A DNA stretch of 64,000 nucleotides from Fructobacillus americanaquae (lineage in GTDB: Bacteria; Bacillota; Bacilli; Lactobacillales; Lactobacillaceae): NCBI RefSeq assembly GCF_024029775.1, contig NZ_CP097122.1, forward strand, positions 1 to 64,000. Direction: 5' to 3'. The notes beneath the pieces are model-generated. The model made no database searches and was not told where the DNA came from. It worked only from the letters and a program-made list of their open reading frames with translations. The position numbers and the translations under genes were made by a program. Below are positions 10,016 to 49,984 of the stretch, in pieces (the stretch's first letter is position 1; every line of letters starts with the position of its first letter).

Positions 10016-10070
10016 CTTGTTTGATAAAAATGTCAGTAACTGTTATTATGTTTGTAAGAAGTAATTCTGC

Positions 10071-10173
10071 TACAATGTAATCCTCACTGAAAAACGTTAA
10101 GCGTAATGTTATCCTATTAACAAAGTACGCGAGATACATTGGGATACCTGCTCTTTGGCAGGTATTTTTTTTG
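10071..10173 (+). ncRNA. Putative small RNA unit 1
   Basis: An extended -10 (TGC then TACAAT at 10071-10076) is followed about 70 nt later by a perfect terminator: ATACCTGC, a 6-nt loop, GCAGGTAT and eight T (10144-10172). No ORF with a ribosome site lies between. The layout predicts a transcript of about 90 nt. Confidence 0.5.
10144..10172 (+). terminator. Rho-independent terminator (small RNA unit 1)
   Basis: Eight-base-pair perfect stem (ATACCTGC/GCAGGTAT) with a TCTTTG loop and a run of eight T. Confidence 0.8.
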
Positions 10174-10183
10174 TAAACAATGC

Positions 10184-13477: not shown

Positions 13478-13560
13478 TTGTTAGCGCAGCTACAACCACA
13501 CATCTCAGGTTTAAGAAGCTAGCGATAGCCGCCTAGAGATGGTGAGTCTAAGTATAAAAG
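13478..13560 (+). promoter_or_regulatory. Ribosomal protein L21 leader RNA
   Basis: About 80 nt between the promoter and the rplU ribosome site contain paired elements (GCTAGCGATAGC region, and CATCTC with GAGATG) in the position of the Firmicutes L21 leader, which is thought to let L21 repress its own mRNA. Identified by context and general form, not by a covariance search. Confidence 0.6.
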
Positions 13561-26743: not shown

Positions 26744-26943
26744 GGTTGTAATTGAAAAAGATAGAAGGCAGGTGCCCAGCTTTGCAGTGACCTTAACGTT
26801 AGTGTGAGTTAAGGGCTGGCCCTGGCCCGCGCGGCTTTTTCTGCTCAGAATTTGATAACAAGGTGGCCATCATGGCTATTAGAGTGGTACCGCGGGCAGG
26901 GCTCGTCTCTTTGGTTAATAAGAGACGAGTCCTCTTTTGCAAG
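26744..26943 (+). promoter_or_regulatory. T-box leader of argS
   Basis: The T-box sequence AGAGTGGTACCGCGG (26880-26895) and a downstream terminator stem (GCTCGTCTCTT/AAGAGACGAGT then CTCTTTT, to about 26940) are clear. Upstream is a Stem I-like hairpin CCAGC...CCTTAAC/GTTAAGG...GCTGG. Stem I looks shorter than canonical, and I could not assign the specifier codon with confidence. Uncharged tRNA-Arg should favour the antiterminator and switch argS on. Confidence 0.85.
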
Positions 26944-45270: not shown

Positions 45271-45394
45271 GAGTATTAGGTCGATGATGATTACTGAAAA
45301 GGCTTGCTAATCACTTGGTTAGTAGGCTTTTTCTGTCTTAAACAAGTTTTCTTCTTGACCTTTTTAAGAAAAATCGGCATAATATGAATAGATT

Positions 45395-45552
45395 AGTTTA
45401 AGGCTTTGACCCGGTCTGGCACCCGGTGAGCTGAGAACCGTGAAAGTGTCAACGACTGAGCAATTGGTTGTTGGAAATCAGGTGGAACCGCGCGTTAGCG
45501 TCCTGATGTCAAATTTTGACATTGGGGCTGTGAACCGCGGTTTTTTTGTCAG
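45395..45552 (+). promoter_or_regulatory. T-box leader (probably glycine) upstream of the DUF2130 gene and glyQS
   Basis: AGGTGGAACCGCG (45479-45491) is a clear T-box sequence. A terminator is formed by AACCGCG of the T-box with the later CGCGGTT and a T7 run (to about 45548). The short Stem I region (about 45400-45450) contains GGTCTGGCACC, which could supply a GGC specifier; this is tentative. The first gene after the leader is not glyQ but a DUF2130 gene. Confidence 0.75.
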
Positions 45553-45566
45553 ATAAGGAGGGGTTT

Positions 45567-46928
45567 ATGGCCAAACTGAAGTATCATTTGGAGTCGGACA
45601 CGGTTTTGGTTTTAAACGAGGACGGCCATGTTGGCGATACCTTGGATTTGAAAGACGAACTTCAAGTTGATACGAATCAACTTGGCGTGGCTGTGCAAAC
45701 GGCCATTGATGAAAAATTAGCTCAGGAAAAGGTCGATTGGGAAAAGAGTCAACAACGCTTATTAAAGGCACAAATTGACCAGGAAAAGCAAAAGGCTGAT
45801 TTGGCGCTGGAGAAGGCTAAGCAGGCTGAAAAGGATGCAGCGCAGCAAGATAAGGCAAAACTGCAAGAGCAACTGACTCAGCTACGTTCACAGTTGGCTG
45901 CGTTCAAGGATCAGGAGGCTGCCACAAAGGAGTTGGCGCTGGCTAAACAAAAGGAACATCTGCAGAGCGCCTACCAGGCTGAAAAGGACCAGGCTGGACA
46001 GAATCGACAGGAACTAGAAAAGCAACTAGCCGATTTGAAAAATCAAGTTGAAAACCAAGGTCGCGATCAAGAGTTGGCCTTGGCAAAGGTGAAGTCGGAC
46101 TATGATGCCCAACTGCAGGCCGCCCAAGAGCAAGTCGAGTTCTATAAGGACTTTAAGGCTCGGCAGTCAACTAAAGAGATTGGTGAAAGCCTAGAAGTTT
46201 ACGCTCACCAGGAGTTCAACAAAATCCGCCCATACGCCTTTCCTAATGCCTACTTTGAGAAGGACAACGAGGTTTCAAAGCAATCCGGATCGAAGGGTGA
46301 TTTTATTTTCCGAGATTATCAGGATGGTGTGGAATTTATTTCGATCATGTTTGATATGAAAAACGAGGCGGACGCAACTGAACAGAAGCATAAAAATGCT
46401 GACTTTTTTAAGGAACTGGATAAGGACCGCAGGGAAAAGAACACCGAATATGCTGTCTTAGTCTCGATGCTGGAAGCCGATGATGAGTACTATAATACCG
46501 GAATTGTTCAGGTACCGGACTACGAGAAGATGTACGTCATCCGCCCGCAATTTTTTGTTCATTTTATCGGTCTTTTACGCAACGCGGCCTTGGACTCGCT
46601 TCAATACCGGCGGGCGCTGATTGAGGAGCAAAATCAAAACATTGATATTACCAATTTTGAGGATAGCATCACCGCCTTTAAGGACCGCTTTGCTAAAAAT
46701 TATAATTCCTACTCGAGTAACTTCCAAAAAGCAATCGAACAGATTGACCGGGCGATTAGTCAGATGGAAAACGTGAAAAAGAGCTTGACGACTTCTGAAA
46801 ATCAGATTCGTCTTGCTAACAATAAGTTGGAGGATTTGACCGTCAAAAAGTTGACGAGGAATAATCCAACCATGACGAAGAAGTTCGCTGATTTAAAAGC
46901 GGACCAGGAAGGTGATCGAAAGCCGTAA
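45567..46928 (+). CDS. DUF2130 domain protein with coiled coil, nuclease-like core
   Basis: 453 residues; ATG at 45567 with AAGGAGG upstream. Residues about 45-200 are a long Gln/Lys/Glu/Ala coiled coil. Residues about 205-330 form the DUF2130 core (STKEIGESLEVYAHQEF, SGSKGDFIFRD, ISIMFDMKNEA), whose acidic-Lys pattern recalls restriction endonuclease-like folds. A second coiled coil ends the protein. It lies between the T-box leader and glyQ, 51 bp before glyQ, so it should respond to tRNA-Gly charging. Biochemical role unknown. Confidence 0.78.
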   Translation: MAKLKYHLESDTVLVLNEDGHVGDTLDLKDELQVDTNQLGVAVQTAIDEKLAQEKVDWEKSQQRLLKAQIDQEKQKADLALEKAKQAEKDAAQQDKAKLQEQLTQLRSQLAAFKDQEAATKELALAKQKEHLQSAYQAEKDQAGQNRQELEKQLADLKNQVENQGRDQELALAKVKSDYDAQLQAAQEQVEFYKDFKARQSTKEIGESLEVYAHQEFNKIRPYAFPNAYFEKDNEVSKQSGSKGDFIFRDYQDGVEFISIMFDMKNEADATEQKHKNADFFKELDKDRREKNTEYAVLVSMLEADDEYYNTGIVQVPDYEKMYVIRPQFFVHFIGLLRNAALDSLQYRRALIEEQNQNIDITNFEDSITAFKDRFAKNYNSYSSNFQKAIEQIDRAISQMENVKKSLTTSENQIRLANNKLEDLTVKKLTRNNPTMTKKFADLKADQEGDRKP

Positions 46929-46979
46929 ACTCGTCACATTGTTTTAAAATTTTAATGATGAAAAATAAAGGAAAGACTT

Positions 46980-47927
46980 ATGTCCAGTGAAAAATTATCA
47001 GTACAAGACATTATTTTGACCCTGCAAGAGTTTTGGGCCGCAAAGGGCGCTAACTTGATGCAGGCTTACGATAACGAAGTTGGAGCGGGAACTCAAAGCC
47101 CTTATACCTTCTTGCGCGCTAACGGTCCAGAACCCTGGCGAGCAGCCTATGTTCAGCCTTCACGGCGACCAGCCGACGGTCGTTATGGTGACAATCCAAA
47201 CCGTTTGTTCCAACACCACCAATTTCAGGTAGTGATGAAGCCTTCACCTGACAATATTCAGGAATTGTACCTTGCTTCTTTGGAAGCCTTGGGTATTAAG
47301 CCCTTGGAACATGACATTCGTTTTGTTGAAGATAACTGGGAAAATCCTTCAATGGGTGCGGCCGGAATCGGTTGGGAAGTTTGGTTAGACGGGATGGAAG
47401 TGACGCAGTTCACTTATTTCCAACAAGTTGGTGGAATTGAAGTTGATTCCGTTACGGCTGAAATCACCTATGGTTTGGAACGGCTAGCCTCTTACATCCA
47501 GGATGTGCCAACGGTTTATGATTTGGAATGGGGTCATGGCGTTCTGTATGGTGATATTTTCAAAGAACCGGAATATGAACACTCAAAGTATGCCTTTGAG
47601 GAGTCAAATCAGGAAATGTTACTCCAACATTTTGATGATTATGAAAAGGAAGCTCAGCATAATTTGGCATTAGGCTTGGTTCATCCGGCCTATGACTATA
47701 TTTTGAAGTCATCTCATACCTTTAACCTTTTGGATGCCAGAGGAACGGTTTCTGTAACAGAACGAGCTGGTTATTTGCACCGAATTCGAACAATGGCTCG
47801 GCAGGTTTCAAAGGTCTTTATTGAAGAACGAGCTAAGCTTGGCTTCCCATTGTTAAAGGACGAGGCATTACGTGAAAAGTACTTGGGTGCTAAGGGAAAG
47901 TACGCCAAGAAGGAGGAGCAGGACTAA
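46980..47927 (+). CDS. glyQ: Glycyl-tRNA synthetase alpha subunit
   Basis: 315 residues with AAAGGAAAG before the [42 protein letters not shown] and FQVVMKPSP are diagnostic class II motifs for GlyQ. It forms the alpha2beta2 enzyme with GlyS, overlapping it by 1 bp. No T-box lies in the 51 bp upstream, so regulation depends on the leader before the DUF2130 gene or on an internal promoter. Confidence 0.97.
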
Positions 47928-49984
47928 TGGCAGATTTTATTTTAGAAATTGGTTTGGAAGAAATGCCAGCCCACTTGGTGACGAGTTCTGAAAAGCAGCT
48001 TATCGACCGAGTTTCTGATTTCTTAGACGAGCACCGACTCGATTATGAAGCGATGAAGCCATTCTCAACGCCACGACGCTTAGCTGTCGAATTGACTGGC
48101 TTGGCGACCGGCTCAAAAGCCGTTGAAGAAGAAAAGCGGGGACCAGCCATTGACCGTGCTAAGGATGACAACGGTGATTGGTCGAAGGCTGCTCAGGGAT
48201 TTGCTCGTGGACAGAAGACGACGCCAGAAGCCTTGATCGAGAAGGATGGCTACTTGTGGGCCAAGACTGAAATTGCCGGTGTTTCAGCCGCGGAAATTTT
48301 AGCAAAGTTGGGCAAGGAAGTTGTTGAAAAAATGACCTTCTCAACTTACATGAAGTGGGGCAATCACAGTTTCGCTTATATTCGTCCAATCCGCTGGTTA
48401 GTGGCCCTTTTGGACCAGGATGTGGTTGATTTTTCTGTTTTGGACGTTCAAACAGGTCGGACAACTCGTGGTCACCGTTTCTTATCAACGGAAAATGTGA
48501 CGATTGCGGGTGCTGCTGAATATGAGCAGACATTGCAAGATGCTTTTGTGATGGCTGATGCAGCCAAACGCAAGGCAACCATTCAAGCGCAGTTGGAAAA
48601 GATTGCTCAGAGCCAAAACTGGCACTTGAATTTGACCACTGATCAAGCACAAGACCTTTTGGAAGAAGTTAATAATATCGTCGAATGGCCAACGGCCTTC
48701 GCCGGTAACTTTGACCAAAAGTACCTGGATTTGCCAAAGGAAGTCTTGATAACTTCGATGCGTGACCATCAACGCTTCTTCTTTGTGACGGATGACCAGG
48801 GTGACCTATTGCCACACTTCCTTTCTGTCCGCAATGGAAATGAAGAAAACTTGGCCAACGTGGTTGCCGGAAATGAAAAGGTCTTGGTTGCTCGTTTGGA
48901 AGACGCTGTCTTCTTCTACCAAGAAGACCAACAAAAGTCGATTGATGACTACATGGACCGGGTGAAAAAACTGGTCTTCCATGAAAAAATTGGTACCGTC
49001 TACGAACACATGGTTCGTGTCCGGGCTTTGGCTGGTCAATTGGGACAAGTACTTGGTCTTTCATACGAAGAATTGTCTGATTTGAACAGGGCCACTGAAA
49101 TTTATAAGTTTGACCTGATGACTGGCATGGTCGGTGAATTTGACGAATTGCAGGGTGTGATGGGGGAACACTACGCCAAGCTCTTTGGTGAAAATGACGT
49201 CGTTGCTCATGCGATCTTGGAACACTATTTGCCAACTTCAGCAACCGGCGCAGTAGCTGCTTCAAAAATTGGAGCGGTGTTGGCTGTCGCCGATAAGCTC
49301 GATTCCATCGTGACCTTCTTTGCGGCTGACCTGATTCCTTCAGGTGCCAACGACCCTTATGGTTTACGTCGGGCAGCAACTGGAGTCGTTAAGACGCTGG
49401 AAGCGCATGACTGGCGTCTTGACTTGGAAACCGTTTTGGCTAACTTCAAGGACCAAAACAAGAATGTAGCGGATGCTGATTTGGCCCAGGTCATGGCCTT
49501 TTTGACAGACCGTGTCAAGAAGCAAGCAGCCGATGCTGGCGTTCGTTCTGACATCGTTTCTGCTGGAACGGCCAACGTAGTAACTGGTGATTTGGTTTAC
49601 GTGGCCGACCGAACAGCGGTCTTAGCAAAGCATTCAAAGGATGCAAACTTCCGCGATGTGATTGAGTCTTTTTCTCGAGTAAGTCGCTTAGCTAGTAAAG
49701 AACGCAGTGATGTCCCTGTTAAGCCGGACTTGTTTGAAAATGATCAGGAAAAGGCTTTGTACGCAGCAAGCAAGAACTTGAACTTGGTTGACTTGGAGAA
49801 ACAGGGCGCAGAATCACTGTATCAAGCATTGGCTGCCTTGCAAGAACCAATTGCTGCTTACTTTGAAAATACGTTGGTTAATGACAAGAAGAAGGCGATT
49901 AAGAATAACCGCTATGCACAGTTGCAGGCCTTAGACAAGTTGATAGTTGGCCTTGGGGATATTGAAAAAATCGTTGTCAAATAA
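47927..49984 (+). CDS. glyS: Glycyl-tRNA synthetase beta subunit
   Basis: 685 residues. FILEIGLEEMPAHLV at the N-terminus, STPRRLAVELTGL, FSTYMKWGNHSFAYIRPIRW and TSMRDHQRFF are typical GlyS blocks; the C-terminal region holds the HD-like and anticodon-binding parts. It is a tRNA-binding subunit needed for GlyQ activity. A perfect palindrome begins at the stop codon and a terminator follows. Confidence 0.97.
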   Translation: MADFILEIGLEEMPAHLVTSSEKQLIDRVSDFLDEHRLDYEAMKPFSTPRRLAVELTGLATGSKAVEEEKRGPAIDRAKDDNGDWSKAAQGFARGQKTTPEALIEKDGYLWAKTEIAGVSAAEILAKLGKEVVEKMTFSTYMKWGNHSFAYIRPIRWLVALLDQDVVDFSVLDVQTGRTTRGHRFLSTENVTIAGAAEYEQTLQDAFVMADAAKRKATIQAQLEKIAQSQNWHLNLTTDQAQDLLEEVNNIVEWPTAFAGNFDQKYLDLPKEVLITSMRDHQRFFFVTDDQGDLLPHFLSVRNGNEENLANVVAGNEKVLVARLEDAVFFYQEDQQKSIDDYMDRVKKLVFHEKIGTVYEHMVRVRALAGQLGQVLGLSYEELSDLNRATEIYKFDLMTGMVGEFDELQGVMGEHYAKLFGENDVVAHAILEHYLPTSATGAVAASKIGAVLAVADKLDSIVTFFAADLIPSGANDPYGLRRAATGVVKTLEAHDWRLDLETVLANFKDQNKNVADADLAQVMAFLTDRVKKQAADAGVRSDIVSAGTANVVTGDLVYVADRTAVLAKHSKDANFRDVIESFSRVSRLASKERSDVPVKPDLFENDQEKALYAASKNLNLVDLEKQGAESLYQALAALQEPIAAYFENTLVNDKKKAIKNNRYAQLQALDKLIVGLGDIEKIVVK

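Follow-up and report, generated by a model that had tools for sequence, protein, structure and literature searches.

The closest described counterpart of the leader analysed here is the glyQS T-box of the Firmicutes, a class I, transcriptional switch without Stem II, with which it shares a glycine specifier, a UGGA bulge, Stem III, an antiterminator and a terminator. It departs from that system in that its Stem I measures 48 nt, the specifier lying in a terminal loop of 6-8 nt, and in that a gene is inserted before glyQ. As far as the available text of PMC7583486 describes them, the ultrashort ileS T-boxes of Actinobacteria likewise have a short Stem I that lacks the elbow-binding module; however, these are translational and lean on Stem II, whereas the leader described here carries a transcription terminator but lacks Stem II. 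Section 6.2 of the same source, in its accessible part, holds that the elbow-binding module is generally required in transcriptional T-boxes and that an ultrashort Stem I belongs to translational ones, and the portion of PMC7778990 available to us notes that class I matches with a truncated Stem I exist in TBDB. With regard to the inserted gene, a table from 2008 (Table 2 of PMC2494555, in the excerpt available) lists unknown genes under tRNA-ligase-related Gly, Val, Ala and Thr T-boxes in streptococci, a glycine case being spr1331 of S. pneumoniae. The general arrangement of an uncharacterised gene under a tRNA-ligase T-box was thus already known, although in that excerpt DUF2130 is not named and the genera are different ones. 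Our literature search, in which subscription journals were thinly covered so that either may be in print, returned no description of a DUF2130-glyQS operon or of an ultrashort transcriptional glycine T-box, and DUF2130 appeared by name in three papers of the literature searched, in no case in the title or abstract.

The window, a stretch of 64,000 nucleotides from the single-contig, 1.41 Mb genome of Fructobacillus americanaquae, carries on its forward strand, in this order, frr, a promoter-like site, a T-box leader, a DUF2130 gene, glyQ and glyS. The promoter-like site (TTGACC-17-CATAAT, 45355-45383) agrees with the consensus at 10/12 positions, and its TTG(A/C) and ATAAT columns are conserved in 14 aligned leaders. 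The DUF2130 gene (45567-46928) encodes 453 residues and matches PF09903 with an E value of 7.3e-80 and 268.4 bits against a curated cut-off of 26.7, the profile match covering residues 175-432 (46089-46862). It is followed, after an intergenic gap of 51 nt (46929-46979), by glyQ (glycyl-tRNA synthetase alpha, 46980-47927; PF02091, E 5.6e-139) and glyS (glycyl-tRNA synthetase beta, 47927-49984; PF02092, E 2.1e-193). A sequence-only reading of this DNA had placed the DUF2130 gene between the T-box and glyQS and had seen no second T-box before glyQ; it can be seen that both statements hold, the 51-nt gap containing none. The DUF2130, glyQ and glyS genes are probably co-transcribed.

The survey of gene order around glyQS that this reading had suggested revealed that the placement of DUF2130 is clade-wide. 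The order T-box motif, DUF2130, glyQ was found in all 17 genomes inspected, which represent three genera (13 Fructobacillus, two g6 and two g53), and members of g6 or g53 that lack the gene may exist among the family genomes beyond these 17. The distance between DUF2130 and glyQ ranges from 7 to 67 nt, and is 7-16 nt in nine of the genomes. An frr match was present upstream, within the fetched stretch, at 9/13 Fructobacillus loci and at none of the other four (L003, L005, L007 and L013), showing that the gene preceding the T-box varies. The premise that a T-box usually sits directly before glyQS proved correct for 27 of 29 other Lactobacillaceae genera, in which the motif lies 67-342 nt before glyQ with no intervening open reading frame of at least 70 aa; no T-box motif was found before glyQ in L253 and L259, although a T-box model that we built from the leaders of the clade does detect one in L253.

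Leuconostoc genomes differ in what lies between the T-box and glyQ. This gap is empty in five of the 11 genomes (L042, L043, L055, L232 and L233), holds a DUF1801 gene in two (L041 2831-3265 and L044 2972-3382), and in the other four holds a pair of genes encoding 244 and 128 or 129 aa (L045 2397-3518, L046, L054 and L234 3304-4422), of which the L045 copies had no Pfam or NCBIfam match. It is also empty in g7 (L051). Each of the 11 Leuconostoc genomes does have DUF2130, but away from glyQ. Three unrelated cargoes therefore occupy the gap within one clade, and none of at least 70 aa was seen in the 27 other genera. Judged from gene order, genes have repeatedly been inserted between T-box and glyQ, and this makes a passenger the more plausible reading of DUF2130 than a dedicated tRNA nuclease would be.

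Within the family, DUF2130 was found in 34/301 genomes and 7/40 genera. The best 80 of 556 relatives from a scan of named genomes were mostly from streptococci and clostridia, and 14 viral contigs also carry the gene. In a tree of DUF2130 cores the 17 that are linked to glyQS form one group (support 92/84), which fits a single move into the gap, and the Leuconostoc cores fall separately from it (99/98), together with g7 and one g32 row; three Leuconostoc genomes share an identical core with L. pseudomesenteroides or L. inhae. The g53 cores lie within Fructobacillus in this tree, but the GlyQS tree does not resolve the position of g53 and several forks have weak support, so that a transfer may have taken place. 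RmuC, considered as a stand-in for DUF2130, scored above cut-off in only 2/301 family genomes, and there is therefore no complementary pattern. At one further locus (G018, L035 3779-7016) DUF2130 is split over two frames, by a break or a sequencing error, and the split gene adjoins pieces of a Schlafen-type helicase and of a GIY-YIG protein.

We compared the window's DUF2130 gene with that of L009 and found dN 0.018 and dS 0.87 for the core, and dN 0.047 and dS 0.64 for the N-terminal part; L011 gave similar values. The core dN/dS is about 0.02, and synonymous sites were saturated in the four more distant of six pairs. These substitution rates point to strong purifying selection on DUF2130. 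Residues E207, E210, D245, E256 and K265 are invariant both in 36 and in 63 sequences, and position 263 is D or E in both sets, which thus display a PD-(D/E)XK-like site, D ... [D/E]-x-K; the candidate catalytic residues are E207, E210, D245, E256, D263 and K265. A model of the core (pLDDT 68.6, pTM 0.45) has the order helix, three strands, helix, strand, with D245 in strand two and [D/E]263-x-K265 in strand three, and in this arrangement it resembles PD-(D/E)XK nucleases. It is unlike them in that long coiled coils flank the core on both sides and in that Foldseek gave nothing significant for the core model (best E 0.02); for the full-length model, which is dominated by a long helix (pTM 0.34), the best E was 0.044. 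VIA-align gave a best Z of 8.7 for the core, where the tool warns that 7-8 is common; its top rows were mainly what we take to be PD-(D/E)XK nucleases (McrC, Bax1, Can2/Cdn1 and BstEII), with acetyl-CoA carboxylase and other unrelated rows lower, and we do not count families missing from this list as excluded. A profile search of solved structures with DUF2130 returned coiled-coil matches only (E 0.14 or worse), NCBIfam gave no match, and PADLOC and PHROGs gave weak matches only. The core does look nuclease-like, as the earlier reading had it, and DUF2130 is a predicted nuclease that is likely to be active. Streptococcal and clostridial DUF2130 proteins begin with a CPxCG zinc-ribbon-like segment that is absent in Fructobacillus and Leuconostoc (window 45567-45680).

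On balance we favour an explanation in which a single glycine-specific transcriptional T-box governs DUF2130, glyQ and glyS, and in which DUF2130 moved in and was kept, most likely as a passenger. DUF2130 would have moved, most simply once, into the gap between T-box and glyQ in the lineage that comprises Fructobacillus and two related genera. There it would have stayed functional, with its PD-(D/E)XK-type nuclease core; its most likely status is that of a passenger at a site that the clade has filled several times, and not that of a dedicated tRNA enzyme. Its tie to starvation would then be a regulatory one, and the clade-wide operon provides a regulatory context for the DUF2130 protein family.

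A functional explanation for the same arrangement, which we consider unlikely but would not neglect, is that the DUF2130 nuclease has tRNA, mRNA or stalled translation complexes as its targets under glycine shortage and was selected under the T-box for that reason. It would account for an order that is kept in 17/17 genomes of three genera despite the saturation of synonymous sites in four of the six pairs, and for the conservation of the catalytic residues; moreover, of 30 Streptococcaceae loci with DUF2130, 12 have truB immediately downstream (L063, L065-L072, L076, L084 and L093), and metG and pth flank DUF2130 in one incomplete family genome (metG - DUF2130 - pth, L040 2995-6986). This long conservation in place, along with the truB, metG and pth neighbours elsewhere, leaves room for a functional link. 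However, DUF2130 is away from glyQ in every Leuconostoc genome, with other genes in the gap, and among 113 further DUF2130 loci scanned, many of them with short flanks, the T-box motif was present only at three from Fructobacillus. Most neighbours elsewhere are, furthermore, unrelated to tRNA, and TruB, the commonest, accounts for 5 of the 58 sampled; these 58 were hand-picked from 89 same-strand neighbours with the streptococci thinned, and we claim no enrichment of tRNA-related neighbours. L025 and L061 have an amino-acid permease upstream of DUF2130, and L059 a P-type ATPase. The proposal of the sequence-only reading that DUF2130 acts on tRNA or in starvation thus stays a suggestion, against which stand the unrelated genes in the Leuconostoc gap and the confinement of the T-box motif, among the further loci scanned, to the three from Fructobacillus. 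Its alternative of an inserted passenger has the better support. That the DUF2130 nuclease also acts on tRNA seems to us improbable.

The leader itself was identified by E-value, since at the Rfam gathering score no T-box was reported anywhere in the window. RF00230 matched 45397-45508 at E 2.6e-06, its 34.6 bits falling well below the gathering score of 93, and in a scan of the genome the glyQ leader, at 38.1 bits, was the weakest of 21 T-box matches. The gathering score also missed the T-box in 20 loci scanned, canonical glyQ leaders of other Lactobacillaceae included, and the miss in the window is therefore no evidence against a T-box. The gathering score is a poor test for this T-box subgroup and, as it is blind even to canonical leaders, we used the E-value search and our clade model instead. 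The clade model scored the window, which is itself among the model's 26 training rows, at 96.4 bits; the best score among the other glyQ leaders supplied was 51.0 bits, and across 398 genomes of the phylum, under strict filters, nothing except the window exceeded 43.6 bits.

Stem I (45395-45442) is ultrashort, with a K-turn-like UGA/GAG element, and has the same register in 29/29 leaders. For 26 of these, a UGA-like triplet, 18 nt and a GAG-like triplet follow one another, a register that the collecting scan required and that 26/26 leaders supplied passed; three further Leuconostoc leaders agree with it. Some Leuconostoc have AGA or GGA as their first triplet, and three leaders have UAG or GAA as their last. 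The upper helix (45411-45414 with 45423-45426) has pairs that are formed in 26, 25, 26 and 26 of 26 leaders, so that together the four are 99% formed against 14-54% when slid, and they show compensatory G-C/C-G and G-C/A-U exchanges. In the 17 leaders of the DUF2130 type the six pairs of the lower part are formed in 84% of cells (at most 53% when slid), and in the nine other leaders in 70% (at most 48%). Stem III (45449-45474) comprises five pairs, four of them changed on both sides, with 100% of cells paired across 26 leaders. The antiterminator (45477-45507), which is recognised as part of the Rfam T-box, has its pairs formed in 26/26 rows, and around the UGGAACCGCG bulge (45483-45489, UGGAACC in the window) 100% of antiterminator cells are paired across the 26 leaders. 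Overlapping it, the minimum-energy fold places a terminator hairpin that is followed by a U run (45484-45547), and this intrinsic terminator and the antiterminator are mutually exclusive. The hairpin was missed by a simple terminator scan, probably on account of internal loops in its stem.

Covariation was assessed in an alignment (A8) of 26 of the 29 leaders, from which the near-copies L011, L037 and L055 were left out. It can be seen that 99.8% of 520 cells are paired and that nine pairs are changed on both sides. The covariation score of 0.448, for a structure that was drawn from the same sequences and so leans towards them, compares with 0.166 (sd 0.014) for shuffles, 0/500 of which scored as high, and with at most 0.076 when the pairs were slid. 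Further pair types were not above shuffles (22 vs 21.1; 199/500), and as eight of the ten antiterminator pairs never vary, this element is without a covariation test. When 45390-45560 was folded, the long terminator hairpin and Stem III were produced (z -3.11; 1/200 shuffles as good). Stem I was missing from a fold of 45398-45519 alone, which did not outperform shuffles (z -0.60), and the window's short Stem I alone gave z +0.32, with a minimum-energy upper helix that is shifted from the comparative one. Single-sequence folds thus give no support for Stem I, and the claim rests on covariation.

In the window, the terminal loop of Stem I holds the glycine codon GGC as specifier (45418-45420). 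GGC was found in 27/29 leaders and GGA in 2/29, positions 8-11 of the 18-nt segment being UGGC in 24 and UGGA in two of 26 leaders; GGA comes from F. durionis and F. sp. CRL 2054, whose leaders are near-copies of each other, and was therefore counted as one event. The specifier, which the earlier reading had left to be determined, is thus a glycine codon in all of the clade leaders and a non-glycine codon in none. The UGGA of the bulge is complementary to UCCA and fits the discriminator of tRNA-Gly(UCC), whose gene has a T there (U73). UGGA was also read in 27 glyQ leaders of other genera; for the other T-boxes of the genome the motif was read in 10/15, where the base is U, G or C and none has UGGA. 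By pattern, tRNA-Gly(GCC) is present in 6/14 genomes and was not found in the window's assembly, and the only glycine tRNA among the loci read in G000 (L136-L165 and L181-L185) is tRNA-Gly(UCC), though the specifier is GGC. The missing tRNA-Gly(GCC) may reflect a gap in the window's assembly.

We conclude that the operon is real, glycine-read and clade-wide. In the mechanism that we propose for it, the anticodon of uncharged tRNA-Gly would pair with GGC in the hairpin loop of the ultrashort Stem I, and the 3' UCCA end of the tRNA with the UGGA bulge. Both contacts would stabilise the antiterminator and allow RNA polymerase to pass the terminator, and DUF2130 would rise along with GlyRS when glycine is short. 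A response of the leader to glycine is what this scheme would predict.

The more surprising part of the finding is the shortened transcriptional T-box. A 48-nt Stem I followed by only about 10 nt up to the Stem III region leaves no room for an elbow-binding module or a Stem II, and the hallmark of class I transcriptional T-boxes, a long Stem I with the elbow-binding module, is absent in the 29 leaders. By contrast, five glycine leaders of other Lactobacillaceae for which alignments were displayed (L235, L240, L244, L249 and L256) cover 157-171 nt of the Rfam model and keep the upper Stem I. The clade's switch seems to be an unusually short version from which most of the tRNA-gripping arm has apparently been lost, a feature of Stem I on which the earlier reading had not remarked. 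One way to explain this would be that the T-box has decayed, such that with the loss of the upper Stem I tRNA is no longer sensed and a constant partial read-through remains. The absence of both the elbow-binding part of Stem I and Stem II is in line with this, as are the rank of the leader as the weakest T-box match in the genome and the statement in section 6.2 of PMC7583486, in its accessible part, that the elbow-binding module is essential in transcriptional T-boxes. We nevertheless regard decay as a poor explanation, and an improbable one, since Stem I and Stem III covary, the specifier remains a glycine codon through the GGC/GGA change, and the T-box bulge, antiterminator and terminator are all kept, which would not be expected of a decayed sensor. 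Instead we tentatively propose, while remaining in two minds about it, that the minimal T-box of Leuconostoc and Fructobacillus does without elbow-binding module and Stem II and makes its decision during one polymerase pass, using nothing but the codon-anticodon and 3'-end contacts, and that the clade has accepted varied cargo before glyQS, including a nuclease that glycine shortage induces. Should the short leader prove to work, it would reveal which contacts are dispensable for a transcriptional T-box and would also be a compact tRNA sensor.

That glyQ might have a strong promoter of its own had been named as a danger to the proposed link with the T-box: no such promoter is conserved, but a candidate (TTGACC-18-AATAAT, 46836-46865, 10/12 consensus) does occur in the window and its two nearest relatives. 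The least probable reading, and in our view a very doubtful one, is that glyQS is expressed from this site inside DUF2130, with DUF2130 alone under the T-box, because within 260 nt before glyQ a 10/12 site occurs among the 17 genomes only in the window, L009 and L011, three of the other 14 (L015, L016 and L038) having a 9/12 site and 11/17 none of at least 9/12, and because the site lies within conserved coding sequence and the DUF2130-glyQ gap is only 7-16 nt in nine genomes.

Three other RNA elements were noted in the window. A second T-box (26748-26913, 39.0 bits) lies upstream of a gene that, with its sequence judged by eye, resembles arginyl-tRNA synthetase. A DUF3800-I RNA match (10047-10176) is barely above its gathering score (44.8 vs 44.2 bits), and an L21 ribosomal protein leader is present at 13484-13559 (56.5 bits).
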